This document shows, piece by piece, positions 602 to 13,442 of a stretch of 64,000 bases of DNA. The notes under the pieces were generated by a model. The model ran no database searches, had not been told where the DNA came from, and saw nothing but the letters and a program-made list of their open reading frames with translations. The stretch is from contig NZ_MQUC01000003.1 in NCBI RefSeq assembly GCF_002994045.1, positions 1,092,501-1,156,500 of the forward strand, written 5' to 3'. How positions within the stretch are numbered: position 1 is the stretch's first letter; the number at the start of each line of letters is the position of its first letter. Position numbers and translations under genes: made by a program. This DNA comes from Nonlabens agnitus. Its GTDB lineage: Bacteria > Bacteroidota > Bacteroidia > Flavobacteriales > Flavobacteriaceae.

Positions 602-1362
602 GATTTCTCAAAAACCATACAATGCTGCCACGGCAGGTTGTCAATGTTCTTGACCAATTTAAAACCTGCGGCTTCCATCTCTTTAATGGATTGCGCCTCG
701 GTCATTTTATGAATGGTTTTGATGGGAATGGATCGATCTTCACCACGATATTCAATCAGATAGACCTTTGCGTTGGGTCGCAAGGATTTTTTGATGGACA
801 ACATCATCTCTAATGGATAATTAAACTCGTGATACACATCCACCATTAGGACTTTGTCGATGGTATTTTCGGGTAGGTTAACGCTTTGCTCGTAGCCTTT
901 AATCAGGTTCACGTTGTCCAGACCATTATTTTGCAGTTGCCTGCGCATCTCTGCCAGCATTTCTTCCTGAATGTCGACCGCATATACTTCACCTTCGTGA
1001 GCTATAGGTGCCATTTTAAACACGTGATATCCAGATCCAGCGCCTATGTCGGCAATGACATCGTCACTTTGGATATCCATATTTTCCAGTAGTTTGGAAA
1101 CATTTTCTTCCTTCTCGCGCTCGGGACGGTTCAGCCACTCCATACCTTGAAATCCCATCACATGAGCGATCTCGCGACCTAGATACCACTTCCCTATTCC
1201 ATTGTAATCACCAGATTTATAGGTATAGATTTCGGTGGTGTTTTCTGTCGGTTCGTCTTTCTTTTGACCTTGACAACTCGTAAAACTCATGCAGAGTGCC
1301 AGCGTGATCACTGGAATCACATAGTGATGGATGCGACGGTAAAAAATGCTTTTGGAGTCCAT
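598..1362 (-). CDS. Class I SAM-dependent methyltransferase, predicted lipoprotein
   Basis: This is a 254-residue Rossmann-fold methyltransferase. Motif I (D-I-G-A-G-S-G, about residues 105-111) and the acidic residue after strand 2 (D130) for S-adenosylmethionine binding are clear. The N-terminus has a basic segment, a hydrophobic stretch and a lipobox ending at Cys30 (S-F-T-S-C), so the enzyme is predicted to be exported and lipid-anchored, which is odd for a protein needing cytoplasmic SAM. Similar lipoprotein-like methyltransferases occur in Flavobacteria. The substrate cannot be told from sequence. Its 3' end overlaps the DUF4494 gene by 4 bp. Confidence 0.85.
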   Translation of the reverse strand: MDSKSIFYRRIHHYVIPVITLALCMSFTSCQGQKKDEPTENTTEIYTYKSGDYNGIGKWYLGREIAHVMGFQGMEWLNRPEREKEENVSKLLENMDIQSDDVIADIGAGSGYHVFKMAPIAHEGEVYAVDIQEEMLAEMRRQLQNNGLDNVNLIKGYEQSVNLPENTIDKVLMVDVYHEFNYPLEMMLSIKKSLRPNAKVYLIEYRGEDRSIPIKTIHKMTEAQSIKEMEAAGFKLVKNIDNLPWQHCMVFEKS

Positions 1363-1404
1363 GATGCTAGGTTGAAAATTGGTGTTCGGTCTATTTCTGG
1401 AATT

Positions 1405-1863
1405 TTAGGCCTCGTCCTTGTTGGCCAAAAAGTAGGTCAGAGCACCTACGACCAGCGCCAGTCCAGCGCCTAGGTATAGGATCTCGATACCACTGTTATA
1501 GACCACCACACGACCCGTAAACGAGATTGTCATGATAAAAATGACCATCTTGATCATCAAGGCCTTTAAACCATCCAGGTCCTCAATGACCAGCCACGAT
1601 GGCAAATTGGGAATCTTACACACGTACAATTCAGATAAAGCCATCCCAACAGATAACAAAATCACGCCCAGCAACACAAGATCAAGTGCCTTCAAACAAT
1701 TCTTGATCACTTCGTCCTCTTCACTATACCCCAAAACTATCTTTGAGAGCGTACTATAAATCTCTTTAAATGCATAAAATTCCACGCCTATCGCGAGTGC
1801 GATAATGGCGATCACTGCCAGGGCAGCTACGATTTTCAGGAGGAAGCCTAGAGATTTTGTCAT
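1405..1863 (-). CDS. YqhA / UPF0114 family membrane protein
   Basis: The 152-residue protein has about four hydrophobic segments (roughly residues 8-30, 58-80, 104-122 and 128-147). The central L-P-x-W-L-V-I-x-D-L-D-x-L-K motif is the signature I associate with the YqhA/UPF0114 family of inner-membrane proteins, whose function is unknown. It is read in the same direction as the methyltransferase, 42 bp upstream of it, so the two may share a transcript. No exact -7 box was seen upstream. Confidence 0.8.
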   Translation of the reverse strand: MTKSLGFLLKIVAALAVIAIIALAIGVEFYAFKEIYSTLSKIVLGYSEEDEVIKNCLKALDLVLLGVILLSVGMALSELYVCKIPNLPSWLVIEDLDGLKALMIKMVIFIMTISFTGRVVVYNSGIEILYLGAGLALVVGALTYFLANKDEA

Positions 1864-1910
1864 TTTGGTGGTTTTTAATACGGTGAGAAAAGATAATGAA
1901 AATGTGGTCT

Positions 1911-1934
1911 ATTTCGCTTTCGCGAAAGCGAAAT
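1911..1934. repeat. Dispersed palindrome, 24-bp perfect copy
   Basis: This is the longest perfect copy of the dispersed element: core GCTTTCGCGAAAGC extended symmetrically to 24 bp. It is intergenic, between yqhA and the FtsX-like permease gene, and has no T-run typical of a terminator. Confidence 0.95.
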
Positions 1935-1990
1935 AAACATTCACTCATCCACTATTTTTAAACTTCATAACTGATAATCAATAAGGTGCA

Positions 1991-4534
1991 TCATGCTGCT
2001 TTGCGCAGCACTTCTAACGGTGAACTGCTCAATACACTGCGAATGTTGCTTAACCCTATGATTAAAACCAATATCGAAATTGCCGGTAAAAACACTATAA
2101 ACGGCACTGCTGATGGTACAAAAGGCTCCTTAAATATGAACAGCGCGAGCAGCAAACTGCTCACTAAAGCGAGTACGATACCTACCAAACTACCTAAAAT
2201 TCCCAGAAACAGATATTCCAAAGCGGTGATCCTAAGGATTTGACGATTTTTGGCCCCCAAAGTGCGCAGCAACACACTTTCCTTGATGCGCTGATATTTG
2301 CTGGTTCTTACAGATCCTATCAATACAATGATTCCCGTAAGAATGCTGAAGAACGCCATAAAATTGATGATCCAGGAGACTTTGTCCAGAATATCTTCTA
2401 CCACGTTAAAGACCTGTCGCAAATCGATGATGGAGATATTAGGGAACTTTCGCACCAGATCCCGCTGGAATCCTGCCGATTGCTCTTCGGTTGGTGCATA
2501 GGTCGTTAGCACATTAAACTGCGGTGCACTCTCTAGAATTCCGCTAGGGAAAACGATGGAAAAATTGATCTGCAGATTGGCCCAATCCACCTGGCGTATG
2601 CTGCCCACCACGGTCTCCATAAGAACGCCTTGTACGTTTAAGGTAATGCGATCGCCTATCGTAACATTGGCATCTTGTGCCAGGTTATCTGAAATGGAAA
2701 TCTGTACCAGTTCGCCAGTTTTTTGAGAAGGTGTCCAGCTGCCTGCAATGATTTTTTCAGACGGTATCAAGCTGTCACGATAGGTGGTTCTAAACTCATG
2801 ATTGAGGATCCAGCCGCGTATTTGTCGTGTGGTATCAACACGCAATTCGCTTACCAATTGATCCTTGATCTTATGCATGCGCATGGTGACTAACGGAATA
2901 TTGTCAATCACCGGTAATCCATTCTCTTCAAAGGTAGCGACCACAGCATCCAGCTGATCGGGCTGTACGTCCAGCGCAATGATATTGGCTCTTTCAGACG
3001 CCTGCCCTATTTCGGTTTTGCCCAGTAAAATGTCCTTGGTAAAGTATAAGGTGCTTACGAGAAAGGTGCCCAAACCTATGGCAACGAGTAACACGACGGT
3101 TTGGTTATTGGGTCTGAAAAGGTTGAGCAAGCTTTGTCGGGTCGTGAATCCCGCGCGTTTAGGAAAATACCTTTTGATCAAGCGCATTGCACCTATCGCG
3201 ATACCGGCTAAAATTGCAAAGGTCACCAGTACACCAGCCACGAACCCTAGCGCAAACAATGCATCTTTTAAAAGCCACCAGGAGAAAAGATACAGGGACA
3301 AAACGATCAATCCTATAATGATAACTCGCGCCATATTTGATCTAGCCGATGAAGAATTGGTTACTCTTAAGACTTCCAATGGAGAAACATACCAGGTGCG
3401 CATCAAGGGCAGCAAGGCAAAAAGCACAGACATGAAAAGACCCAGCAAAACGCCCATGATTAAGGGTTGTGCGGTAATGGTAATCTCTAAATCAAATGGT
3501 AAAAACTCCCTTAATAGGTAGGGAAATATCGCTTGGAGACCAACGCCAATAGCGGTTCCAATCAATCCACCAATGACGCCAATACCAGCAATTTGAATGA
3601 GGTAAATCAGGAAACTCTGTTTTCTGGAAGCGCCCATACATTTGAGAACCGCAACAGCGTTGAGTTTTTCCTTGATATAGATATTGACAGAACTGGCGAT
3701 ACCTACACAGCCCAACAATAAAGCGATAAAAGCGGCTAGATTTAAATAGGCACCTACGTTTTCATAACGTCTGCCCAGTCGCCTGCTGGTGCTCGTGTGT
3801 GTATCCAGATCTGCGTCTTCAACATCAAGTTGTGGCTCTACTCTCTGCTCCAGCGCCGTCAAATCTGCATCTGGCTGATTGAAGAAAAATTGATATTCCT
3901 TACGACTCCCGAATTGAAGCAATTCCGTCGCTTCCACATATTCATAAGGGATCACCACAGGTGGCGCTACAGATGTGGAAATACCTTCACTACCAGGAAT
4001 AGATTTGAGCGATCCAGCAATGGGTAATGTGAGTTCACCTATCTTGATTGAATCTCCAGGTTGGATGTTGTACTGCAGCATTAATGTGGCATCTACTAAT
4101 GCTCCGCCAGAATTTTGATACTGATCTCCAGCGTTAGCTGGCAGTGTTTTTATGGTACCATAAAAGGGAAACTTTCCTTCCAGACCGCGTACGTTGACGA
4201 GCTTTGTGCCACCATTTTTAGGAAATGCAATCATGGAAACAAATGTGACTTCCTTGGCATCAGGCTGCAAAGAATCTATGATCGCCTGTGCGCGTTCATT
4301 TGGAACGTCGTCGCTGTCGATGATAAAATCGGCACCCATCAGGGATTTGGATTGCCGCTGGATATTGTCGGTAAGATTTTGACTAAAAAGCTGAATGGAA
4401 ACCACAGCCGCAATACCCAAGATTATGGATGCCATAAACAGCAATAATCTGGAGGTACTAGCTTTGGCATCTCGCCACGCCATTTTGAAAAGCCATTTTA
4501 GCCTTAGACTCGAGGTTAATTGATTAGAATTCAA
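1991..4534 (-). CDS. ABC transporter permease, FtsX/YbbP-like
   Basis: This is an 847-residue permease of the FtsX/MacB superfamily with the YbbP layout: a first membrane helix near residues 28-50, a large extracytoplasmic domain, a bundle of helices in the middle (about residues 260-500), a second extracytoplasmic domain and three C-terminal helices ending in S-P-L-E-V-L-R. The motif S-P-L-E-V-L-R-V appears after the first bundle too, as expected for two FtsX domains. It overlaps the ATPase gene 4531-5220 by 4 bp, so the two are translationally coupled. Family members are mechanotransmission or lipid-related ABC systems; the substrate here is unknown. Confidence 0.9.
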   Translation of the reverse strand: MNSNQLTSSLRLKWLFKMAWRDAKASTSRLLLFMASIILGIAAVVSIQLFSQNLTDNIQRQSKSLMGADFIIDSDDVPNERAQAIIDSLQPDAKEVTFVSMIAFPKNGGTKLVNVRGLEGKFPFYGTIKTLPANAGDQYQNSGGALVDATLMLQYNIQPGDSIKIGELTLPIAGSLKSIPGSEGISTSVAPPVVIPYEYVEATELLQFGSRKEYQFFFNQPDADLTALEQRVEPQLDVEDADLDTHTSTSRRLGRRYENVGAYLNLAAFIALLLGCVGIASSVNIYIKEKLNAVAVLKCMGASRKQSFLIYLIQIAGIGVIGGLIGTAIGVGLQAIFPYLLREFLPFDLEITITAQPLIMGVLLGLFMSVLFALLPLMRTWYVSPLEVLRVTNSSSARSNMARVIIIGLIVLSLYLFSWWLLKDALFALGFVAGVLVTFAILAGIAIGAMRLIKRYFPKRAGFTTRQSLLNLFRPNNQTVVLLVAIGLGTFLVSTLYFTKDILLGKTEIGQASERANIIALDVQPDQLDAVVATFEENGLPVIDNIPLVTMRMHKIKDQLVSELRVDTTRQIRGWILNHEFRTTYRDSLIPSEKIIAGSWTPSQKTGELVQISISDNLAQDANVTIGDRITLNVQGVLMETVVGSIRQVDWANLQINFSIVFPSGILESAPQFNVLTTYAPTEEQSAGFQRDLVRKFPNISIIDLRQVFNVVEDILDKVSWIINFMAFFSILTGIIVLIGSVRTSKYQRIKESVLLRTLGAKNRQILRITALEYLFLGILGSLVGIVLALVSSLLLALFIFKEPFVPSAVPFIVFLPAISILVLIIGLSNIRSVLSSSPLEVLRKAA

Positions 4535-5220
4535 ATCGCGGTTGTGGGTTCATTGGTTAGCACTTGTCCACCTTTCAACCTTAGTATCTGCTGGGTTCTC
4601 GCAGCCAGATCTAGATCGTGTGATATGATCACCAGTGTTGTTCCTGCATCCTTATTGAGATCCAAAAGAAGTTTGATCACCTTCTCGCCGGTTTCTTCAT
4701 CGAGATTTCCCGTCGGTTCATCTGCAAACAAAATGGATGGACGATTGGAAAAAGCTCTGGCCAGCGCTACACGTTGCTGCTCACCACCAGATAATTGTGA
4801 TGGGTAATGGTTGACGCGATCGCCTAGACCTACCTTTTCCAGCAGTTCGCTAGCTCTGGAGACCGCAGTAGCATCACCTTGTAATTCTAAGGGAACACTC
4901 ACATTCTCTAAAGCTGTTAGTGTAGGTAACAATTGAAAATTTTGAAAAATGAAGCCTACCTCTTTGTTGCGCAGTTGAGCGCGCTCATCTTCATTAAGTT
5001 GATTCAAATCATGACCGCAAAGTTCAACAGTTCCAGCATTGGGCTGATCCAGACCTGCGCACAAACCCAGCAAAGTGGTCTTCCCACTACCTGATGGCCC
5101 GACAATGGAAAAAGTTTGCCCTTTTTCTACCTCAAACGAGACATTTTTCAATACCGTTAATTGTCGCGAGCCACTGGTATATGTTTTCTCCAGCCCATTA
5201 ATCTTTAATATCTTTGACAT
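4531..5220 (-). CDS. ABC transporter ATP-binding protein, YbbA/LolD-like
   Basis: A complete 229-residue ABC ATPase: Walker A G-P-S-G-S-G-K-T-T (residues 41-49), signature L-S-G-G-E-Q-Q-R, Walker B I-L-F-A-D-E-P-T-G and an H-loop in I-I-S-H-D. It powers the permease encoded immediately downstream. A TAnnTTTG box at 5255-5262 on the minus strand gives it its own promoter, about 35 bp upstream of the ATG. The tesA-like gene is divergent, as in the tesA-ybbA-ybbP arrangement of enterobacteria, which supports the YbbA assignment. Confidence 0.92.
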   Translation of the reverse strand: MSKILKINGLEKTYTSGSRQLTVLKNVSFEVEKGQTFSIVGPSGSGKTTLLGLCAGLDQPNAGTVELCGHDLNQLNEDERAQLRNKEVGFIFQNFQLLPTLTALENVSVPLELQGDATAVSRASELLEKVGLGDRVNHYPSQLSGGEQQRVALARAFSNRPSILFADEPTGNLDEETGEKVIKLLLDLNKDAGTTLVIISHDLDLAARTQQILRLKGGQVLTNEPTTAI

Positions 5221-5254
5221 TGATTCTTTTAATATTTTCTGCTAAGCTTATGCT

Positions 5255-5262
5255 CAAATCTA
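5255..5262 (-). promoter_or_regulatory. TAnnTTTG -7 box for the YbbA/YbbP-like operon
   Basis: On the minus strand this reads TAGATTTG, an exact -7 consensus, ending 34 bp before the ATPase start codon. It lies just upstream of the preferred divergent esterase start at 5268. Confidence 0.5.
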
Positions 5263-5267
5263 AAACT

Positions 5268-5999
5268 ATGGAAACCCTTTTAAACAGAGCAATTTATAGG
5301 CAACGCATCCTATTAAACTTTTGTTATTTTCTATGTACTTTGTCGCTCTTCTCCTGCAAGAATGACGCAGCACCAACTACAGAGACCACCACTGAAGCTA
5401 CCAGTCAGAAACCTGAGGAAGTTCAAACCTCAAGTGATAAAACCATTTTGTTTTTTGGAGATAGTCTGACGGCTGGATACGGTCTCGATGACACAGCAGA
5501 TGCCTTTCCTGGTGTGATTCAGGAAAAGATTGATGCCGCTGGTCTTGATTATCAGGTAGTTAATTCAGGTATTAGTGGTGAAACTACTGCTGGTGGAAAA
5601 AGCCGTATTGACTGGACACTCAATCAAAAAATTGATGTTTTTGTATTGGAATTAGGCGCTAACGACGGTTTACGTGGCGTGCCTGTTTCAGAAACCAGAG
5701 CTAATCTACAAGCCATTATTGATGCCGTTAGAGCCAGCGACTCAGAAACCAAAATTATTCTAGCTGGAATGCAACTACCGCCTAACATGGGTCAGCAATA
5801 TACTAGCGAATTCAAATCCATGTTCTCTGATCTTGCCACTGAAAACAACATCTTTTTGATACCGTTTCTATTAGAAGATGTTGGCGGTGTTCCATCCCTA
5901 AATCAAAACGATGGCATACATCCTACCGTTGAAGGTCACAAAATATTGGCAGATAATGTTTGGCAAGTTTTGGAAGGCGTGATTTCTACACCTTCATGA
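5268..5999 (+). CDS. TesA-like arylesterase / lysophospholipase, SGNH hydrolase lipoprotein
   Basis: The 243-residue protein carries the SGNH blocks: G-D-S-L-T-A-G-Y-G with the nucleophile Ser, the Gly block G-I-S-G-E-T, the Asn block L-G-A-N-D-G, and D-G-I-H-P-T near the end with the catalytic Asp and His. The N-terminus has a hydrophobic segment and lipobox L-F-S-C-K-N, so it is probably a lipoprotein in the periplasm or outer membrane. The open frame extends upstream to an ATG at 5214, which would overlap the divergent gene; I prefer 5268 (5250 is also possible). The pairing with a divergent YbbA/YbbP exporter is conserved in other bacteria. Confidence 0.88.
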   Translation: METLLNRAIYRQRILLNFCYFLCTLSLFSCKNDAAPTTETTTEATSQKPEEVQTSSDKTILFFGDSLTAGYGLDDTADAFPGVIQEKIDAAGLDYQVVNSGISGETTAGGKSRIDWTLNQKIDVFVLELGANDGLRGVPVSETRANLQAIIDAVRASDSETKIILAGMQLPPNMGQQYTSEFKSMFSDLATENNIFLIPFLLEDVGGVPSLNQNDGIHPTVEGHKILADNVWQVLEGVISTPS

Positions 6000-6038
6000 C
6001 CCATTCTTGATAGATAGATGCAAACGGTTTGTTGAAAG

Positions 6039-6078
6039 TTCGCTTTCGCGCCTGGCTGCTCGCAGACAGAAAAGCGAA
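6039..6078. repeat. Long-loop variant of the dispersed palindrome (left edge of the TIR/caspase block)
   Basis: Arms TTCGCTTT and AAAGCGAA flank a roughly 24-nt insert rich in CTG/CAG, instead of the tight palindrome. A similar element in the same orientation sits at 12251-12289, beyond the other end of the accessory operon. Confidence 0.8.
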
Positions 6079-6105
6079 TCAATCAATAACTCACACTCCT
6101 CACAA

Positions 6106-7101
6106 TTAATAATCCTGCTGATAAGCTATTTTCACCCAAACTTCCAAAGTCTCATTGTCCTGCTCGATGTCAAGAACAATCACCGGCTGGTCCTTGACCA
6201 ACACTTCATCTTTCAATACCGCAGATTGACCATTAATCACGGGCAATTCATACACCTTTACGGTTTTTAACGGATAAATCACATTGTCTGGCAATGGATA
6301 GCCTTCAGGATTCTTATTTTTATTGAAGGCTTCTACTGCCATAACCATTTCACCATCAACGTCCATAGGAACGTAGCCAGTAGCATCCATAAATGAGGCA
6401 ATGCGTTGCCTCGCCTCATCATAATGCGTGGCATTTTCTTTGAATTCGATAAGGTAATCAGTATAAATATTGAGCGTATTTGCATCTACTGTGTACGCCC
6501 ATGTGGCTTCGTCACTAGAGACTTCTCCAATAGGATCGTCACTTGTATCTTCTACAGCATCAGAATCAAACATCCAGACTAATAAAAAAGGAATCAAAAT
6601 AGCCACAGCGGCACCTATGATATAGGCTTTCCATGGTTTTTTTCTGGTGTAAACCCGTTTGACTTTCTTACGCGTTCTGGGTATGGCCGTCACTACGGGT
6701 TCACCACTGCTAGCGGATTGTTTTTCAAATTGAGCGCGCAGATCGTCGACGAGTCGCTGTGCACCTACATCAAAACCTAGAGTGAAATCTATAAACTGGG
6801 TACGTACCATCCTTAGCGGTACATCACATTCTTCGATCTTGATAGGTATAACGGGAACGTTACTGTGTTTTGAGAAAGCGATTTCATCCTTGACGTTCTC
6901 TGATGCTACCGAAGTTTGTGACAGTACCAGGACCATGGCGTCTGCCTTTTTGATCTGCTCTTCCAACACATCATCCCAACCTTTTCCTACCGGTATTTGC
7001 TCATCAAACCATATTTCAAATTCTTGTTCACGCAGGACATCAACCAGATGTTTGACATACTCCTTATCTGCACGCGAGTAACTTATAAATAAACGTTTCA
7101 T
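6106..7101 (-). CDS. Membrane-anchored TIR domain protein
   Basis: Residues 1-125 form a TIR domain: F-I-S-Y-S-R at the N-terminus, W-F-D-E-Q-I-P-V-G-K-G-W-D-D in the BB-loop region, and S-x5-S-x5-E ending at Glu73, the position of the NAD-cleaving glutamate in active TIRs. A basic stretch (143-155) precedes one membrane helix (about 157-178), so the TIR should face the cytoplasm and residues 180-331 lie outside. That outer part contains a W-A-x(n)-Y-x-x-Y-L pattern like the short helical repeats seen beside bacterial caspases, and a C-terminal beta-rich region that could be SH3-like. It is last in a four-gene operon, 20 bp after the caspase gene. NADase activity is inferred. Confidence 0.88.
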   Translation of the reverse strand: MKRLFISYSRADKEYVKHLVDVLREQEFEIWFDEQIPVGKGWDDVLEEQIKKADAMVLVLSQTSVASENVKDEIAFSKHSNVPVIPIKIEECDVPLRMVRTQFIDFTLGFDVGAQRLVDDLRAQFEKQSASSGEPVVTAIPRTRKKVKRVYTRKKPWKAYIIGAAVAILIPFLLVWMFDSDAVEDTSDDPIGEVSSDEATWAYTVDANTLNIYTDYLIEFKENATHYDEARQRIASFMDATGYVPMDVDGEMVMAVEAFNKNKNPEGYPLPDNVIYPLKTVKVYELPVINGQSAVLKDEVLVKDQPVIVLDIEQDNETLEVWVKIAYQQDY

Positions 7102-7121
7102 ATGGATTGGTTTTCAGTTGG

Positions 7122-9368
7122 TTAGTTTAAAAATACGCCATTTAAAAATCTCACGAACTCATCATTTGTTTTTCTGGTCAATGTGGTGTAGGCAAGGCAG
7201 GCATTGGCATGCATGGAAATTTTCTCTCGTGGTCCAGCCTCAGCAGCGGCAATGGTATATTGCTCTTTGGCCGTTGAGAAGTCGGCTAGATATATGCTGG
7301 CTTCGGCAATAGTGGCGGCTTTCCAGATGCTTTCAAAAGGATCTTCTTGAGCACGCTTTCGCGAAAGCGTGGCATACTTTGTCATCTCCGCCCTATCCTG
7401 ATGGTGAACAATGCTCATAAAGGCAAGATTGATAGCTAAAAAATATTGCTTCTCGATATTGTTCTCATCAACAGCCATATCAAACGCTTTTTTGTATAGG
7501 TCAAAACTGCGATCGCCGTCTTTCTCTTTGTTGTATTTAAGAAAACGCCGTTTGACACGACCTGCAAGTAAGCCTAAGAAATAAAGGCTTTCATTTTCAT
7601 TTGCCTGACTTTCTGCAAAGTCTATCGCATCATCCAGCCGGTCGAGTCCTTCTAGTGCAAATATTAAATTACGCGTTCCTTTGTTACCTAGATTTTTACG
7701 GTCTGGCCAGAGTTCCCTAACCACAGCCTCGTAATCGCCTAACAATAGATTAATTTCTTCTTTGTTGGTGTATTTATTGGAGAAGGTATTGTCAGTCAGT
7801 GTTTTGCAAATCAACTGGTAACCATCATGATCAGTGTCTTCTGGCTGCACCATACTGAAATGATCTCCAGCTACTAATACATCGCTTGATACGTCAAAAA
7901 CGCCAAAGCTATTTTCTGTTCCCACAAGATTGTCATCAGTTCCTACAGCATTCTTCAAGGTAAAATCTGGTGTAGAAAAGGACGCATTCCATTCCTTTCT
8001 CAAGTTTTGAATAAACGTTCCTGTAGAAAATAAATTCTGGTGTCGTTTTTCCACCTCTTTATTATCCTTGGCAAGAATCCCTTTGTTGGGCGTTGCCATT
8101 AAAATGATATGACTAATTATAGAACGTTCCTCTGGTTTGAGTTGCAACATGGCCATTTGAATAGCAAGTCCACCTAGGCTATGCCCTACTAGTGCCACCC
8201 TTTTATAATCCTCAAACTTATGACGTATTCCAGAGGCAATATTATCTGCCAACTTTTGAAGGTCTAACGAGCTGGCCCATATATCATGCCCCATTTCTGG
8301 CATGTTGTTTTGGGAAAACCCAAGAGGAAATAAATCCCAACCATCCATATCGCTATCCTGAGCCAGTAGCTTAGGGACTTCACCAAAGGATTTATGCGCC
8401 TCACCAGAAAAACCGTGTACAAAAACAGCAGCGTTTACACCATGATTCTCCCTAAATTTAGATAGCACTTCACCAGTAGCTTCTTTCTCTGTTCCTTTTG
8501 ATTCAGTATATTGTTTTACAGTCTCTTGTATGTCTTTAAGTATATTTTTACTTAATATGAAGTTATCAAACATCTGCAGGGTTACAAAAGGTCGTTGTAC
8601 GCTCTTGACTTCTGGCACTTTACGCATCACATGATTGATTACATCAGTCATTCTCACGTAGGGTTCTTTAAAATCAGGATGGTGTTTTCCTTCCAGGACT
8701 TCTAGCAAACATTCTGTAAACAGACTGTTTTCTGCATCCTTAGGAATGATCCACGATCGTTCTTCGGCACGGCAAGATGATAAAATAGACATACCGCGAC
8801 CATCATCCATCTTGTGAATCATCCCTTCTGGATTGGTCAATCGATCCTTTAGGCTTGCTTTGCCTATACCTGGCGAACTCTTAGTCATACCACCAGCGTG
8901 ACAACAGTCCAGCACTAGAATGAGGCGACGTGTTTTGAGTGATGCCAGCTTTTCCTTTAGCTCCGTAGCGAGAACCCAAGTATCTCTATACTTTCTACCA
9001 TTATAATCGTTAGGAACCCAGAAATAATGGGTTTCATTCTCTTCTTCTGGTTTGAGATCCTTCCCGTCATGTTCCCATTCTTGTATGTCATTATCGGTAT
9101 ATGTACCTCCATGACCTGAGTAAAATAGCAAAACGCTGGAGTCTTCGTCTGTTTTATCGATCAATGTATCAAATGCGTCCAGAATTCCTTTTCTAGTGGC
9201 TTGCTTTTCTACCAGCAATTGTATATTCTCTGGCTTATAACCTACTTTATCAGGATCTGAAAGCAGATTAGCTATAGCTTCCGCATCTCGTGCACTGGCA
9301 GGCAAATCCTTGCCTACTCCTATTAAAAGCGCATATGCATTGTCGAGGTTTGATGTAGAGCTACTCAT
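7122..9368 (-). CDS. Caspase-like peptidase fused to an alpha/beta-hydrolase and TPR-like domain
   Basis: A 748-residue multidomain protein without membrane segments. Residues 10-275 are a C14 caspase/metacaspase domain: Y-S-G-H-G-G with His86 and L-V-L-D-C-C-H-A-G with Cys156 as the likely dyad. Residues 310-530 are an alpha/beta-hydrolase resembling PGAP1-type lipases: F-V-H-G-F oxyanion strand, G-H-S-L-G with Ser397, and G-D-H-F-S-M-V with His503. Residues 540-748 are helical and recall the TRAFs-binding/DUF4071 TPR-like domain. The start overlaps the 167-residue gene upstream by 4 bp (ATGA). A palindrome copy at 7353-7370 encodes T-L-S-R-K-R in the C-terminal domain. Confidence 0.88.
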   Translation of the reverse strand: MSSSTSNLDNAYALLIGVGKDLPASARDAEAIANLLSDPDKVGYKPENIQLLVEKQATRKGILDAFDTLIDKTDEDSSVLLFYSGHGGTYTDNDIQEWEHDGKDLKPEEENETHYFWVPNDYNGRKYRDTWVLATELKEKLASLKTRRLILVLDCCHAGGMTKSSPGIGKASLKDRLTNPEGMIHKMDDGRGMSILSSCRAEERSWIIPKDAENSLFTECLLEVLEGKHHPDFKEPYVRMTDVINHVMRKVPEVKSVQRPFVTLQMFDNFILSKNILKDIQETVKQYTESKGTEKEATGEVLSKFRENHGVNAAVFVHGFSGEAHKSFGEVPKLLAQDSDMDGWDLFPLGFSQNNMPEMGHDIWASSLDLQKLADNIASGIRHKFEDYKRVALVGHSLGGLAIQMAMLQLKPEERSIISHIILMATPNKGILAKDNKEVEKRHQNLFSTGTFIQNLRKEWNASFSTPDFTLKNAVGTDDNLVGTENSFGVFDVSSDVLVAGDHFSMVQPEDTDHDGYQLICKTLTDNTFSNKYTNKEEINLLLGDYEAVVRELWPDRKNLGNKGTRNLIFALEGLDRLDDAIDFAESQANENESLYFLGLLAGRVKRRFLKYNKEKDGDRSFDLYKKAFDMAVDENNIEKQYFLAINLAFMSIVHHQDRAEMTKYATLSRKRAQEDPFESIWKAATIAEASIYLADFSTAKEQYTIAAAEAGPREKISMHANACLAYTTLTRKTNDEFVRFLNGVFLN
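7353..7370. repeat. Dispersed palindrome inside the caspase gene
   Basis: An 18-bp perfect palindrome around GCTTTCGCGAAAGC. In the gene's frame it is read as T-L-S-R-K-R, near residue 670. Confidence 0.92.
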
Positions 9369-9868
9369 TGTATGGAATCTAACATTTGTTGTAATTGGGC
9401 TACCTGAGCATGTGAAATTGATATAGGTGCTGCATCAATCGCGGTGATAAGACGTTGCATTTTTACGCTTTTTTTTGGTGGAATGATGTTGCGTTGTACC
9501 AGCTCTGTTAAGATAGAAGATGGAGATTTTCCAATTACATTTATAGAACAATCGGTTGCTAATTCTACCAACGTATTATCTATTGACCTTTTGATCTCAA
9601 CTAACTGTTCGTAAGGCCTTAACTTTTTCTCAAACCCTATCTTTGGACCACTTTTTTCTACACCAGCCGCAAGATCACTACCGAAAGTTTCTTGTGCGGC
9701 CTCAAGTGCGCTCTCGAAAGTAAGTGACAAACCACTGGCATTTGCCGTTATGGCTCCTAGCCTACCAAAGGCCGCTACCATAGGTTTGCGAAATAGAAGA
9801 ATAATAATCAACAACATTGAGGGCCAAATGATGACGTTGATGAGTGCAATAAATTCTTGGATGGTCAT
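9365..9868 (-). CDS. Small membrane protein with helical C-terminal domain
   Basis: I do not recognise a named family with confidence. The 167-residue protein has one membrane helix at the N-terminus (about residues 8-27, I-I-W-P-S-M-L-L-I-I-I-L-L-F-R-K-P) followed by a cytoplasmic region. The layout of the second half (a helix starting Y-E-Q-L-V-E-I, then S-S-I-L-T-E-L and a further helix) recalls the DUF4145-like/HEPN-like helical proteins often found in defence loci, but the R-N-x(n)-H ribonuclease motif is absent. It lies between the TPR sensor gene (18 bp gap) and the caspase gene (4-bp overlap), so it is almost certainly co-translated with them. Confidence 0.75.
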   Translation of the reverse strand: MTIQEFIALINVIIWPSMLLIIILLFRKPMVAAFGRLGAITANASGLSLTFESALEAAQETFGSDLAAGVEKSGPKIGFEKKLRPYEQLVEIKRSIDNTLVELATDCSINVIGKSPSSILTELVQRNIIPPKKSVKMQRLITAIDAAPISISHAQVAQLQQMLDSIQ

Positions 9869-9886
9869 ATGGTAGCGTTTTAATGG

Positions 9887-11872
9887 TTAATGCCAGTAAT
9901 TCATGATCTTATCAAATTCAGGGGTTTTGATTATATTTTTAAAAACGGGATCATTTTGAAACCTGCGCGTGGTATAAATGTTACCATCAGCAATGGAGGT
10001 TTGTAATAGTCGAAGGGCTTTATCATCATTCCCTATTCCTGCGTGATATCTAGCTAATTCATAATCAGTACTACCGTAATCGTAGTCTGTTTTAAGTCTT
10101 TTTATCTGGGCAAGCGTTTCCATGGCTTGTGATTTATTCCCGGCTTTATAAAATGCCGTTGCCAGCAAGGATTTTATTCTAATGTCTGCAGGTTTTGCGG
10201 CTGCTAGACGTTGCGCAAGCGATAGCGCTTTTACGTTTTGCCCTAGCCATAACATGGATTGTAGCGTACTGGCATCTTCAAAACCTTGACTTAATTCAAT
10301 GACTTTAAGGAATTTCGCTTTCGCGAAAGCGAGATCATCCATCAACATAGCCTGCATTCCAAGAAAATACTGCAACCGGACTATTTCTTCAGGCCGCAAT
10401 GATAATTCCTGCCGTTCCAGCAAAAGATCGATTTTTCTCTTCTGTCCCGTTTTAAGATAAGCGACTACCAATGGTTCCAGCAACAATTCTTGTTCCCGAT
10501 CCTTAATGACTTTCTCAAGTTCGCTGATCACCTTTTGATAATCCCCAAGCTCAATATGGGCTAACGCACTTACATATTGACGATTAAGACACGTGTGGCA
10601 GTTATACAGATCCAAAGAATCGTTTGAAATACGTTCATAAATAGGTTCTACATCCTCAGGCCTATTGACGTACTGCTGGGCAACAACCATTACAGTAGAG
10701 TTATCGACAAGCTGTTGTGGTACAAATCGATACTCTTCTAGCAGCGTTTGATAGACTCGATCGTTTTCTCCATTGATAAGCGCCTCATAGTACTTCAATA
10801 GATTTGCCTGTCTTTTATTATCGTAGGCTGTCAATTTTATGGTTCGGCGTAAAGAGTCTGCGATTTTGTAATTGCCTTGACCGTAATGGTAGGCCACTCT
10901 CAATACTTGAGGTTCAAAAAAGGTAGGATCTATAGATATAGACTCGTTCAATAAATTTAGATAGTCTTTCTCGCGATGGGACTTTGACTTTGCTTCCAGT
11001 AGTTTCTCGTAAGCCATATATTTAGGAGGATTACGTTGCAAGCTCAAAGAATCGTTTTTGTTTTCTAAAAACAGATACCCCATGATGAGTTGCTTAATAT
11101 TCTCGATACACACCAGCGGATCTCTACTGGAACACGATTGCGGTTTAAATGAAACCAATATATCCGATGTTTTCCCATCCGTTATGGAGCTTTGTACGAT
11201 CAGCTGATCTTTATTTAGAAAATATGTTCCCGTAATGATTTTACTAGGCTGTATGAACCGGTCTAGAATCTTGATAGAGCCAGATGTATAGCCTTCAAAA
11301 TCTTCTGCATATTGCTTTATGGTCTCGGTAGATATTACCTGGGCAATTTGTTTCTCATTAATTCCCTGAATAATCCAATCTGCCGCCATGCTGCCCGCTA
11401 CGTCCAGAGAATCTTGCATACTGTTATTCTTGAATTTGAGCACCACGATGCGATCATCAACATCTACTATGGGTTCGCTTTCCACGCGTACAACCGTCTT
11501 AACGAGTGGTTCATCGTTATTAAAGAAATTTGCTTTAGTAATGACCACTACAACAGCCATACAGACCACGGAGAATATAGCTACCGTACCGAAATAGATC
11601 TTTTTAAAAGAAGCAATAGATGCTAATTCTTTTTTGCTTTGATCCTCGTTGTATTCTATATGAATTTTAAATTTATAGATGTAATACAGATAGAACGGGA
11701 AACCTAGTACCAAAATGAGTATCAGGACGGTAACCGACTTTTTAGGTAAACCAATGGGTTCCCATACTACCGCGAGTACTTGAAGTAACACCCATGTGGA
11801 AACCAAGTAGATAGAAATAAGCTTTAGAACGTCCTTCTTTTGACATTCAGCGATAAATTGCTTTATCGTCAT
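9887..11872 (-). CDS. Three-helix membrane protein with FlgO/TolB-like and TPR domains (putative sensor)
   Basis: The 661-residue protein begins like the membrane proteins often attached to adenylate cyclases or TolB-like domains: a short cytoplasmic helix, then helices at about 17-38, 45-66 and 95-115 with the W-E-P-I-G-L-P motif between the first two. Residues 140-290 (starting I-V-V-L-K-F-K-N-N) resemble the FlgO/TolB N-terminal fold. The remainder is a chain of TPR repeats, ending in N-D-P-V-F-K-N-I-I-K-T-P-E-F-D as in that family. With three helices the large part should face the periplasm if the N-terminus is inside. It is first in the operon with TIR and caspase. A palindrome copy encodes A-F-A-K-A in a TPR. 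Confidence 0.82.
   Translation of the reverse strand: MTIKQFIAECQKKDVLKLISIYLVSTWVLLQVLAVVWEPIGLPKKSVTVLILILVLGFPFYLYYIYKFKIHIEYNEDQSKKELASIASFKKIYFGTVAIFSVVCMAVVVVITKANFFNNDEPLVKTVVRVESEPIVDVDDRIVVLKFKNNSMQDSLDVAGSMAADWIIQGINEKQIAQVISTETIKQYAEDFEGYTSGSIKILDRFIQPSKIITGTYFLNKDQLIVQSSITDGKTSDILVSFKPQSCSSRDPLVCIENIKQLIMGYLFLENKNDSLSLQRNPPKYMAYEKLLEAKSKSHREKDYLNLLNESISIDPTFFEPQVLRVAYHYGQGNYKIADSLRRTIKLTAYDNKRQANLLKYYEALINGENDRVYQTLLEEYRFVPQQLVDNSTVMVVAQQYVNRPEDVEPIYERISNDSLDLYNCHTCLNRQYVSALAHIELGDYQKVISELEKVIKDREQELLLEPLVVAYLKTGQKRKIDLLLERQELSLRPEEIVRLQYFLGMQAMLMDDLAFAKAKFLKVIELSQGFEDASTLQSMLWLGQNVKALSLAQRLAAAKPADIRIKSLLATAFYKAGNKSQAMETLAQIKRLKTDYDYGSTDYELARYHAGIGNDDKALRLLQTSIADGNIYTTRRFQNDPVFKNIIKTPEFDKIMNYWH
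10315..10332. repeat. Dispersed palindrome inside the TPR sensor gene
   Basis: An 18-bp perfect palindrome with core GCTTTCGCGAAAGC, translated as A-F-A-K-A within a TPR helix. Confidence 0.92.
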
Positions 11873-11915
11873 TGGTGGTTGGTTTTATAATTACTTGAAA
11901 ATTAAGGATTAATAA

Positions 11916-11923
11916 CAAATATT
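11916..11923 (-). promoter_or_regulatory. Possible -7 box of the TIR/caspase operon
   Basis: On the minus strand this reads AATATTTG, one mismatch from TAnnTTTG, 43 bp before the operon's first start codon. It is the best candidate in the 97-bp divergent gap, but weak. Confidence 0.3.
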
Positions 11924-11969
11924 CGCTAACTTAACAGTCATTAAGTTCTAACTAAAAAACCTTTAAACC

Positions 11970-12107
11970 ATGAGCACTGAAAAAACTCCATCACCAAAGC
12001 CAGGAAAAGACGCACCAAAACCTGGAAAACCTATTGATCAAGATCAAGACGGAACACCAAAAACTGGCGTAGTTATAGGTCCTAGAAGAGATGGCCCAGC
12101 CATCTAA
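11970..12107 (+). CDS. Small Pro/Lys/Gly-rich protein (45 aa)
   Basis: A short frame from ATG 11970 to TAA 12107 encodes 45 residues with no hydrophobic segment. It contains two K-P-G-K-x-x-P-K-P-G-K-like units (around residues 10-21), an acidic D-Q-D-Q-D-G stretch, and a C-terminal half V-V-I-G-P-R-R-D-G-P-A-I. Supporting evidence: it is divergent from the TIR/caspase operon (97 bp between start codons), its composition is far from random for AT-rich intergenic DNA, and a hairpin terminator follows at 12160-12184. No family is recognised. It could be a partner, substrate or signal for the neighbouring operon, but this rests on position only. Confidence 0.6.
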   Translation: MSTEKTPSPKPGKDAPKPGKPIDQDQDGTPKTGVVIGPRRDGPAI

Positions 12108-12159
12108 GTTTTGATTTTTAATTCAATAAGTAATCTAATTTGGACGTCATCTAATTAAA

Positions 12160-12184
12160 AAACCCATTGCACTGCAATGGGTTT
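12160..12184. terminator. Bidirectional hairpin terminator
   Basis: An 11-bp perfect stem (AAACCCATTGC / GCAATGGGTTT) with a 3-nt loop. On the minus strand it runs into a T6 tract, as expected for termination of the flavin monooxygenase gene; it may also end the small plus-strand gene at 12107. Confidence 0.8.
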
Positions 12185-12250
12185 CATTATAATCAAATGG
12201 TAAATGAGTATCGTATGGAGCTATTTTGCTTTTCAGAACTTCTTCTGTTT

Positions 12251-12289
12251 TAGCTTTCGCGCCAGCGCGCCGATAGGCAGAAAGTGAAC
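12251..12289. repeat. Long-loop variant of the dispersed palindrome (right edge of the TIR/caspase block)
   Basis: GCTTTCGCGCC, a GC-rich middle, then CAGAAAGTGAA: similar to, and in the same orientation as, the element at 6039-6078, with several mismatches in the second arm. Confidence 0.65.
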
Positions 12290-12307
12290 TAAAAATTAAA
12301 ACCTCAA

Positions 12308-13336
12308 TTATGCTGCCACTGCTTCCTTTTCGGCCGTGAGCTCTTTCATAATATTTGCAAATGAGTTGTAAGATTTGATCTTATCATTTACATCATAGAT
12401 ATTACAAACTGCGATGAGCTCATCGGCATTGGTTTGTTTCAAGAAATCTTTTACTTGCGCCTTAACAGTTTCCTTACTGCCAATAAAGGAATATTTGAGC
12501 ATTTGATGTAATTGTGGATGCTGCATCACTTGCTGTAAATCGTCGTCCATCACAACTGGAGGCTGCACAAAATCGCGTTGGCCCGTGAAGATCCCTATAA
12601 TCATTTTAATCAACGAGGTGGCTAGAGCTTGTGCTTCTTCGTCAGTGTCGGCAATAATTACATTCACACCTGCCATCACATAGGGTTTATCCAAAACCTC
12701 TGATGGCTTAAATTCTTCTCGGTAAATCTTTAGGGCATCAAATAAATGAGTGGTAGCAAAATGGCTGGCAAATGCATAGGGTAATCCTTTTGCTGCCGCG
12801 AGATGTGCACTGTCGGTGCTGGATCCAAGAATGTATAGAGGCACATCAACACCTTCAGCCACGGTAGCGCGAACTTTTGATCTTGCATTTTCCTTCTTGA
12901 AATAAGTCTCGAGTTTTTCCAGTTCTGCTGGAAAGGAATGCGCGGCTTGCATAAAATCAGAGCGAATCGCTTGTGCGGTTTCACGATCTGTACCAGGTGC
13001 ACGACCCAAACCTAGATCGATTCTATTGGGATAAAGGCTTGCCAAAGTTCCAAATTGCTCTGCTATAATCAATGGCGAGTGATTAGGTAACATGATGCCA
13101 CCAGATCCTATGCGCAAGGTATTGGTGTTTTCTGCCAGATATCCTATTAATATGGACGTAGCACTACTACCTATGTTTGGAGCGTTGTGATGCTCTGCAA
13201 GCCAATATCGCTCGTAACCATTCTCTTCGGCAGCTTCAGCAATCTTAAGAACATTGTGATAGGTCTGTTGAATGGTTTGACCTTGTGATACCAGTGCAAG
13301 ATCAAGTATAGAATATAATGTTTGATTCTTTTTCAT
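12308..13336 (-). CDS. LLM-class flavin-dependent oxidoreductase (luciferase-like monooxygenase)
   Basis: This 342-residue protein is full length for the luciferase-like monooxygenase family of the YhbW/MsnO8 type. Diagnostic parts are L-A-E-H-H-N (about residues 47-52), G-S-G-G-I-M-L-P-N-H-S-P in the flavin-binding barrel, and D-L-G-L-G-R-A-P-G-T-D. Such enzymes use reduced FMN (or F420 in some lineages) to oxidise small molecules; the substrate here is unknown. It is a single-gene unit ending at the hairpin 12160-12184. Confidence 0.88.
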   Translation of the reverse strand: MKKNQTLYSILDLALVSQGQTIQQTYHNVLKIAEAAEENGYERYWLAEHHNAPNIGSSATSILIGYLAENTNTLRIGSGGIMLPNHSPLIIAEQFGTLASLYPNRIDLGLGRAPGTDRETAQAIRSDFMQAAHSFPAELEKLETYFKKENARSKVRATVAEGVDVPLYILGSSTDSAHLAAAKGLPYAFASHFATTHLFDALKIYREEFKPSEVLDKPYVMAGVNVIIADTDEEAQALATSLIKMIIGIFTGQRDFVQPPVVMDDDLQQVMQHPQLHQMLKYSFIGSKETVKAQVKDFLKQTNADELIAVCNIYDVNDKIKSYNSFANIMKELTAEKEAVAA

Positions 13337-13442
13337 GAACTACAGAGGTCAAACGCTGTACCATTTTAAATAGCTGCCATAATAGCAAGATGAAGCACCT
13401 GTAATCGTGTTACTATTGAATTTTTTAAATGCCGTGCAATAA

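Follow-up and report, generated by a model that had tools for sequence, protein, structure and literature searches.

A 64,000-nucleotide stretch of the Nonlabens agnitus genome (contig NZ_MQUC01000003.1, positions 1,092,501 to 1,156,500; hereafter the window, whose numbering is used throughout) contains an operon of four leftward genes, which encode a membrane-anchored TIR protein, a fusion of caspase, α/β hydrolase and TPR-S domains, a small membrane protein and a TPR membrane protein, and from which the gene of a short peptide diverges. This divergent peptide, which the initial annotation of the locus merely mentioned, is its most unusual part and the product of a conserved gene that usually encodes an array with a K-x-G core. 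We tentatively read the locus, with a probability of about 0.45, as a chromosomal, patchily distributed conflict cassette (cell-suicide or immune) built on a metacaspase-type protease, with the dedicated repeat peptide as its partner. The repeat peptide is a possible new component of bacterial immunity or self-destruction.

In the window, the peptide gene (11970..12107, forward strand) encodes 45 residues (MSTEKTPSPKPGKDAPKPGKPIDQDQDGTPKTGVVIGPRRDGPAI), a short variant of the K-x-G repeat peptide whose position and composition recur in homologous loci. We compared 34 such loci from 33 genomes (L002, L016–L018 and L046–L075), the window excluded. A divergent open reading frame (ORF) of 40–296 residues recurs before the TPR genes, usually as a tandem array of units such as (EPKTGITI)n, (SKPGVSINPK)n, (PKDGGGIN)n, (TSKEGPGL)n or (KSKTGPGV)n, among others. 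As a test for such peptides, at least two K-x-G motifs and a combined Lys, Pro and Gly content above 25% were required, thresholds that were set after the first peptides had been seen; the 34 rows comprised the 33 TPR genes of the 34 loci that encode 600 residues or more, and the TPR gene of the window. The test was passed upstream of 29 of these 34 genes, compared with 2 of 344 other genes of the same loci, and one of the two passing controls is a peptide of the same kind, located before the 167-residue gene of L047. Among the five failing rows (L047_1, L055, L058_6, L073 and L075), the peptides of L058_6, L073 and L075 are visibly repeats with a different core, and those of L058_6 and L075 are identical, so that 33 rows are distinct. 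At L047, a TPR gene that stands apart from the caspase operon (1232-3199, forward strand) has an acidic divergent peptide ending in GIHIDPKI at a distance of 107 base pairs (bp).

The units are alike within one array and different between species, and copy number varies fast; at the sister loci L069 and L070, the same unit makes up peptides of 75 and 198 residues, respectively. Differences between neighbouring units fell on codon positions 1, 2 and 3 in 67, 33 and 652 cases (652 of 752 at the third position), a bias that is somewhat overstated, as the count passed over stretches with an amino-acid identity below 60% and included one identical pair twice. Because most of these changes are synonymous, a regulatory array at the DNA level is unlikely. 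A chance ORF could be rejected as well, based on the fixed distance, the composition, the controls and the third-position bias. The window peptide contains one clear unit, PKTGVVIGPR (by eye), its gene has no tandem repeat at the DNA level, and the database peptides P0122–P0124 resemble this short form. A protein search with a repeat peptide gave three matches among four candidates, at E 1.2e-3 to 0.17, and each was another peptide of this kind.

The idea that the peptide is a general companion of TPR genes was unsupported, as none of six complete TPR homologues without an adjoining caspase (L047_1, L106, L107, L112_8, L114_7 and L116_1) passed the test; the loci of L112_8 and L114_7 also hold a TPR-caspase pair. 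L116_0, a weaker TPR match of 571 residues, failed, and L108, where the TPR gene runs off the contig end, passed and was set aside. At loci with a shorter caspase, the test was passed in five of seven cases, and the remaining two, L109 and L110, encode a Ser/Lys-rich peptide at an equal distance. At the level of sequence, these comparisons show a peptide gene that is selected and recurs at caspase-bearing TPR loci. The shorter-caspase loci (L109–L115; for example L109, 6787-8166, reverse strand) represent a sister operon type, in which the TPR protein is combined with a shorter caspase without hydrolase, the downstream genes encode, at L111, a TIR protein and, at L109, small GNVxIG-type proteins, and a divergent K/S/G-rich peptide is found too; the one shorter caspase scanned showed a caspase domain, and its TPR-S match fell just short of the cut-off. 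Our full-text literature searches, some of which were directed at a caspase-linked peptide or substrate, brought up no description of the repeat peptide, which is no proof of its absence from print. To our knowledge, no comparable caspase-peptide pairing is known from bacteria.

The divergent intergenic region in the window measures 97 bp (11873..11969), probably a shared promoter region, and its start-to-start spacing recurs in homologues. The distance from TPR start to peptide start is 97–111 bp in 27 of the 34 rows; the remaining seven values are 69, 75, 75, 84, 128, 130 and 264 bp, some of them because an earlier in-frame ATG was taken. A palindrome, TTCACTATATTAGTGAA, occurs within three mismatches in 19 of the 34 regions, 20–27 bp before the peptide start, a count that is partly circular, as the consensus was read from the same regions; in a shuffle control, means were 6.3–7.7 mismatches and the best of 200 shuffles reached 3–5. 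In the window region the palindrome is absent (best seven mismatches). It represents a possible shared operator or promoter element.

Among the 34 loci, an intact TPR gene adjoins the caspase gene at 31, a TIR gene is present at 23 and a small gene of the 167-residue type at 19, while TPR, small, caspase and TIR genes occur together at 15; the four-gene linkage noticed in the window is thus a recurrent one. Given these counts (TPR 31/34, TIR 23/34, all four 15/34), the steadier core of the system is, judged by gene content, caspase, TPR protein and peptide. At the three loci without an adjoining TPR gene, the TPR gene lies about 5.7 kb off (L047) or is broken (L059), or the locus stops at a contig edge (L071). 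TIR presence requires six changes on a caspase tree of 35 rows, and no match to the small protein was found at L006. It is possible, if somewhat doubtful, that flavobacterial caspases are paired with a dedicated, hypervariable tandem-repeat peptide (substrate, decoy or pro-signal) whose gene diverges from the operon within a promoter region common to both, and that the TIR, hydrolase and small membrane genes are exchangeable sensors and effectors on this core.

Other genes accompany the caspase elsewhere. A PGDYG-like small gene (about 73–79 residues) follows it in 20 of the 34 loci and is missing in the window; the one scanned (L046, 11090-11320, forward strand) matched PF14083, and a search of the window's own genome for PGDYG gave no match, which does not establish its absence, as the control was likewise unmatched. 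At L060, a locus without TIR, a patatin-like phospholipase and a peptidoglycan-binding protein are encoded after the caspase (6823-7911 and 5532-6785, both reverse strand). L145–L150 encode hydrolase-TPR-S-type proteins without caspase; the next gene encodes an 'LCFVxMPFG' protein in five of the six (L148 ends before), TIR-like proteins are located nearby in L145 and L147, and no TPR partner or repeat peptide was seen among the listed neighbours, on which the K-x-G peptide test was not run.

Of 59 genomes searched as relatives, the window's own among them, 4 carry a full-length caspase fusion, and so does 1 of 22 other members of the genus. At E 1e-60, it was detected in 33 of 397 genomes and 27 of 237 genera of a family sample (a few matches being partial) and in 2 of 296 genomes of an order sample; at E 1e-30, a phylum sample gave 8 of 395, two of them full-length (own genome and G198) and six matching the hydrolase and TPR-S part only. 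A protein database yielded 229 matches, and among the 120 matches listed, 119 cover at least 96% of the query. Relatives of the TPR protein occur in 41 of the 397 family genomes. Across the whole of the window's own genome, PF00656, PF13676 and PF20308 have one match each, all in the operon proteins.

A sister species (G007) lacks window positions 6079..12280, a 6.2-kb block that includes all five genes with the peptide, while its flanking DNA is 94–95% identical (L132 255-4332 to window 2001-6078, 94.0%; L132 4325-5414 to window 12281-13370, 95.0%). At the block edge lies an imperfect direct repeat, both copies of which begin GCTTTCGCGCC (left copy 6042..6078, right copy 12253..12288, ends drawn by eye). 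Operon and peptide are one discrete genetic unit, lost or gained as a block. No noncoding RNA was detected in the block at gathering score. Two other members of the genus (G020 and G018) have the GDSL and luciferase-like genes of the flanks next to each other, with no operon in between. Nonlabens marinus (G019) carries the operon at the same chromosomal place, between GDSL/ABC genes and a cold-shock gene; there, one side has an additional gene, and the luciferase-like gene is missing. By Pfam, the ten flanking proteins in the window are a methyltransferase, an FtsX/MacB protein, an ABC ATPase, a GDSL lipase, a luciferase-like monooxygenase, a dienelactone hydrolase, an M28 peptidase, a fumarase-type lyase, a cytochrome c assembly protein and one without family. 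Three of the ten matched PADLOC models (mad2; mad3/mad8/AriA; C3a156), which we attribute to the similarity of methyltransferases, ABC ATPases and oxidoreductases in general.

ORF positions confirmed the order and the tight packing of the operon given in the initial annotation: a 20-bp gap separates the TIR gene (6106..7101) from the caspase fusion gene (7122..9368), which overlaps the small-protein gene (9365..9868) by 4 bp, and 18 bp separate the latter from the TPR gene (9887..11872), all on the reverse strand. The annotated protein architectures also agree with Pfam, whose matches are far beyond chance, and with hydropathy, by which the TIR and small proteins have one transmembrane helix each, the TPR protein three and the caspase and peptide none; the TPR part of the fusion turned out to be TPR-S.

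The fusion protein (748 residues) consists of a caspase domain (12–264; Peptidase_C14, 69.0 bits), an α/β hydrolase (about 310–525; DUF676, 32.0 bits) and a putative TPR-S sensor (558–651; PF20308, 39.2 bits against a cut-off of 27.6), each above its cut-off. TPR-S is predicted to bind an NAD-derived nucleotide. The catalytic H86/C156 and the S1-pocket D28/D154 are invariant in 61 of 61 homologues and align with those of metacaspases, and the window caspase has the His-Cys dyad and the two acidic S1-pocket residues of metacaspase/orthocaspase-type C14 peptidases. From this S1 pocket we infer cleavage after Arg or Lys, as described for such peptidases in PMC6426788. The Ser-Asp-His triad of the hydrolase (S397, D479, H503) is complete in the window protein. 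The nucleophile S397 is kept in 37 of 61 sequences in one alignment and in 30 of 35 in another; in alignment A1, position 397 is Ser, Gly or Asp, with Asp479 and His503 invariant. The variation at position 397 hints at a switch of the hydrolase from enzyme to binding domain. A fold search gave lists filled by caspase and hydrolase domains, with TPR-S barely covered. In PADLOC 2023, the window caspase matched the generic 'caspase' model (64.4 bits), as did 61 of 61 homologues, three of which also matched LmuA. The model for EACC1-associated caspases (NF047832) gave 75.4 bits in the window against a cut-off of 140 and was matched by 61 of 61 homologues at E 1e-5 or better.

The TIR protein (331 residues) comprises a TIR domain (5–117; TIR_2, 85.1 bits), a transmembrane helix (156–183) and a C-terminal region. 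E73, which we take to be the catalytic Glu, is retained in all 28 rows, providing at the sequence level the conserved Glu of TIR NADases. PADLOC 2023 gave TIR-domain matches (best Aga_TIR, 46.2 bits; ThsB at E 2e-7 or weaker), and the sole Thoeris model matched in NCBIfam was ThcB4 of type III Thoeris (31.7 of 220 bits), a result that does not test type IV, for which no model was seen in NCBIfam. TIR proteins are of two kinds, that of the window with TIR domain, helix and long C-terminal region, and another in which the TIR is joined to a membrane part of two helices and a further gene encodes a one-helix protein whose C-terminal half resembles the C-terminal region of the window TIR (by eye); this split across two genes suggests that the parts act jointly. 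The TPR protein (661 residues; TPR_19, 29.3 bits, cut-off 25), likely a sensor, has its three transmembrane helices before the TPR region. As a guess based on hydropathy and charge, the TIR and TPR proteins may have their C-terminal parts in the periplasm. The 167-residue protein has no known domain, with no significant Pfam family and no PADLOC 2023 match. The TPR protein had one weak PADLOC match (REase_II, E 0.0077), taken as chance, and 36 TPR proteins gave none. PHROGs gave weak matches only, with none for the small protein, the TPR protein or the peptide. In accord with the suspicion of an unnamed system, PADLOC gave no named system beyond generic 'caspase' and TIR-domain matches, and NCBIfam 2026 no defence-system member above cut-off in the operon proteins.

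Most likely, the locus encodes a caspase conflict system that would, by analogy, work like type IV Thoeris, with the peptide as a caspase substrate or decoy. The membrane TPR protein, here together with the membrane TIR and the 167-residue protein, would sense an envelope insult. Judged by its family and conserved Glu, the TIR domain would then cleave NAD+ (oxidized nicotinamide adenine dinucleotide) to an ADP-ribose-type signal, whose putative binding by the TPR-S part, a member of its family by Pfam score, would release the protease. The invariant catalytic and S1-pocket residues point to cleavage after basic residues, and the K-x-G peptide would be dedicated to the caspase as its partner, serving as a multi-site substrate or as a competitive decoy that sets a killing threshold; the hydrolase could be an optional second activity or binding domain. 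The simpler proposal that the caspase cuts at every Lys is weakened by Lys-Pro in L061 and L054.

Three observations weigh most strongly against the conflict-cassette reading. TIR is missing at 11 of the 34 loci, and many Lys residues precede Pro in some, Lys-Pro-rich arrays. No defence genes were seen among the ten flanking proteins by Pfam and PADLOC, the remaining window not having been scanned. In viral contigs, 0 of 44 pattern stretches checked were confirmed; 33 plasmid records matched partially, none at 80% coverage, phage records gave no match, and no full-length copy was found on either. That no setting of a defence island or mobile element turned up within the tests made weakens the reading. 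A neighbourhood of defence genes, which the initial annotation had named as possible support, was not seen, and its three potentially lethal enzymes are an inconstant trio, as TIR is often missing and the hydrolase lacks its nucleophile in 24 of 61 or 5 of 35 sequences. Its interpretation as a whole survives in part, through the linkage, the single unit and the lack of a named-system match.

Were the locus a relative of type IV Thoeris, the TIR would make a cyclic ADP-ribose isomer, the caspase TPR-S would bind it and protein degradation would stop the phage, the remaining genes and the peptide being accessories. This fits the operon that TIR and caspase share in the window and at 23 of 34 loci, the TPR-S in the caspase and the account of type IV Thoeris in PMC12847820, but we consider it unlikely, given the 11 of 34 loci without TIR, the greater constancy of the TPR protein and repeat peptide and the distance of the window TIR from the only Thoeris model matched (ThcB4, 31.7 of 220 bits). 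A housekeeping stress-response protease module of flavobacteria, not antiviral, would suit a place among ordinary genes, the same in two Nonlabens genomes, and the lack of full-length copies on phage or plasmid records; it is quite improbable for a system that is patchy (1 of 22 other genus genomes, 33 of 397 family genomes) and lost or gained whole, with variable partner genes. More improbable still is a peptide-signal system, in which the caspase matures the tandem-repeat precursor to short oligopeptides as signals or kin markers, comparable to cleaved FxSxx-type precursors and with yeast α-factor as a precedent for a matured repeat precursor. The likeness of units within arrays and their divergence between species, the fast change in copy number (75 vs 198 residues in L069/L070) and the mostly synonymous inter-unit differences would agree with it, but the window peptide has no hydrophobic stretch, the block has no exporter gene and many Lys stand before Pro in some arrays.

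Bacterial caspases act as antiviral effectors. The conserved, fast-evolving repeat peptide next to the protease is a concrete candidate substrate or inhibitor for the restraint or readout of bacterial caspase activity, could reveal how a bacterium sets the threshold for a lethal protease and could provide ready-made reporter peptides. In a marine group, the cassette also brings membrane proteins together with TIR, TPR-S and caspase.

TPR-S (PF20308) conflict proteins were reportedly described by Burroughs and Aravind in 2020. Like them, the window caspase carries TPR-S above the Pfam cut-off; in contrast, the fixed caspase-hydrolase-TPR-S order with a TPR membrane protein and peptide was found in none of our full-text literature searches. 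The caspase shares its fold and S1-pocket Asp with metacaspases, orthocaspases and MALT1, and differs from them in being fused to hydrolase and TPR-S. PMC9503650 and PMC8195603 provide general background. Canu caspase-nuclease systems, as described in PMC12799240, likewise combine a MALT1-related caspase with TPR domains at the locus; unlike there, no nuclease family was found in the four proteins (Pfam, PADLOC, NCBIfam), save the weak REase_II match mentioned above. The VMAP ternary and peptide-processing systems (Kaur et al. 2020, PMC7159879) resemble the present one in pairing a caspase with an α/β hydrolase and in having small, fast-evolving precursor peptides next to conflict genes, from which, in actinobacterial VMAP and FtsH-ternary systems, a metallopeptidase cut frees a C-terminal peptide; unlike VMAP systems, the block contains no MoxR, vWA or VMAP by Pfam. 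The initial annotation's view of an undescribed combination is right in part only, as TIR and a caspase-like protease encoded together are already named as type IV Thoeris (Rousset et al. 2025; described in PMC12847820), where TIR-made N7-cyclic ADP-ribose (N7-cADPR) activates the protease. The membrane-anchored TIR, missing at 11 of 34 homologous loci, the partner with three transmembrane helices, the fused hydrolase, the one-helix protein and the divergent repeat peptide set the present system apart from Thoeris as described there, while both encode a TIR and a caspase-like protease in one operon (in the window and at 23 of 34 loci) and a nucleotide-derived signal acting through TPR-S would, by analogy, be plausible here.

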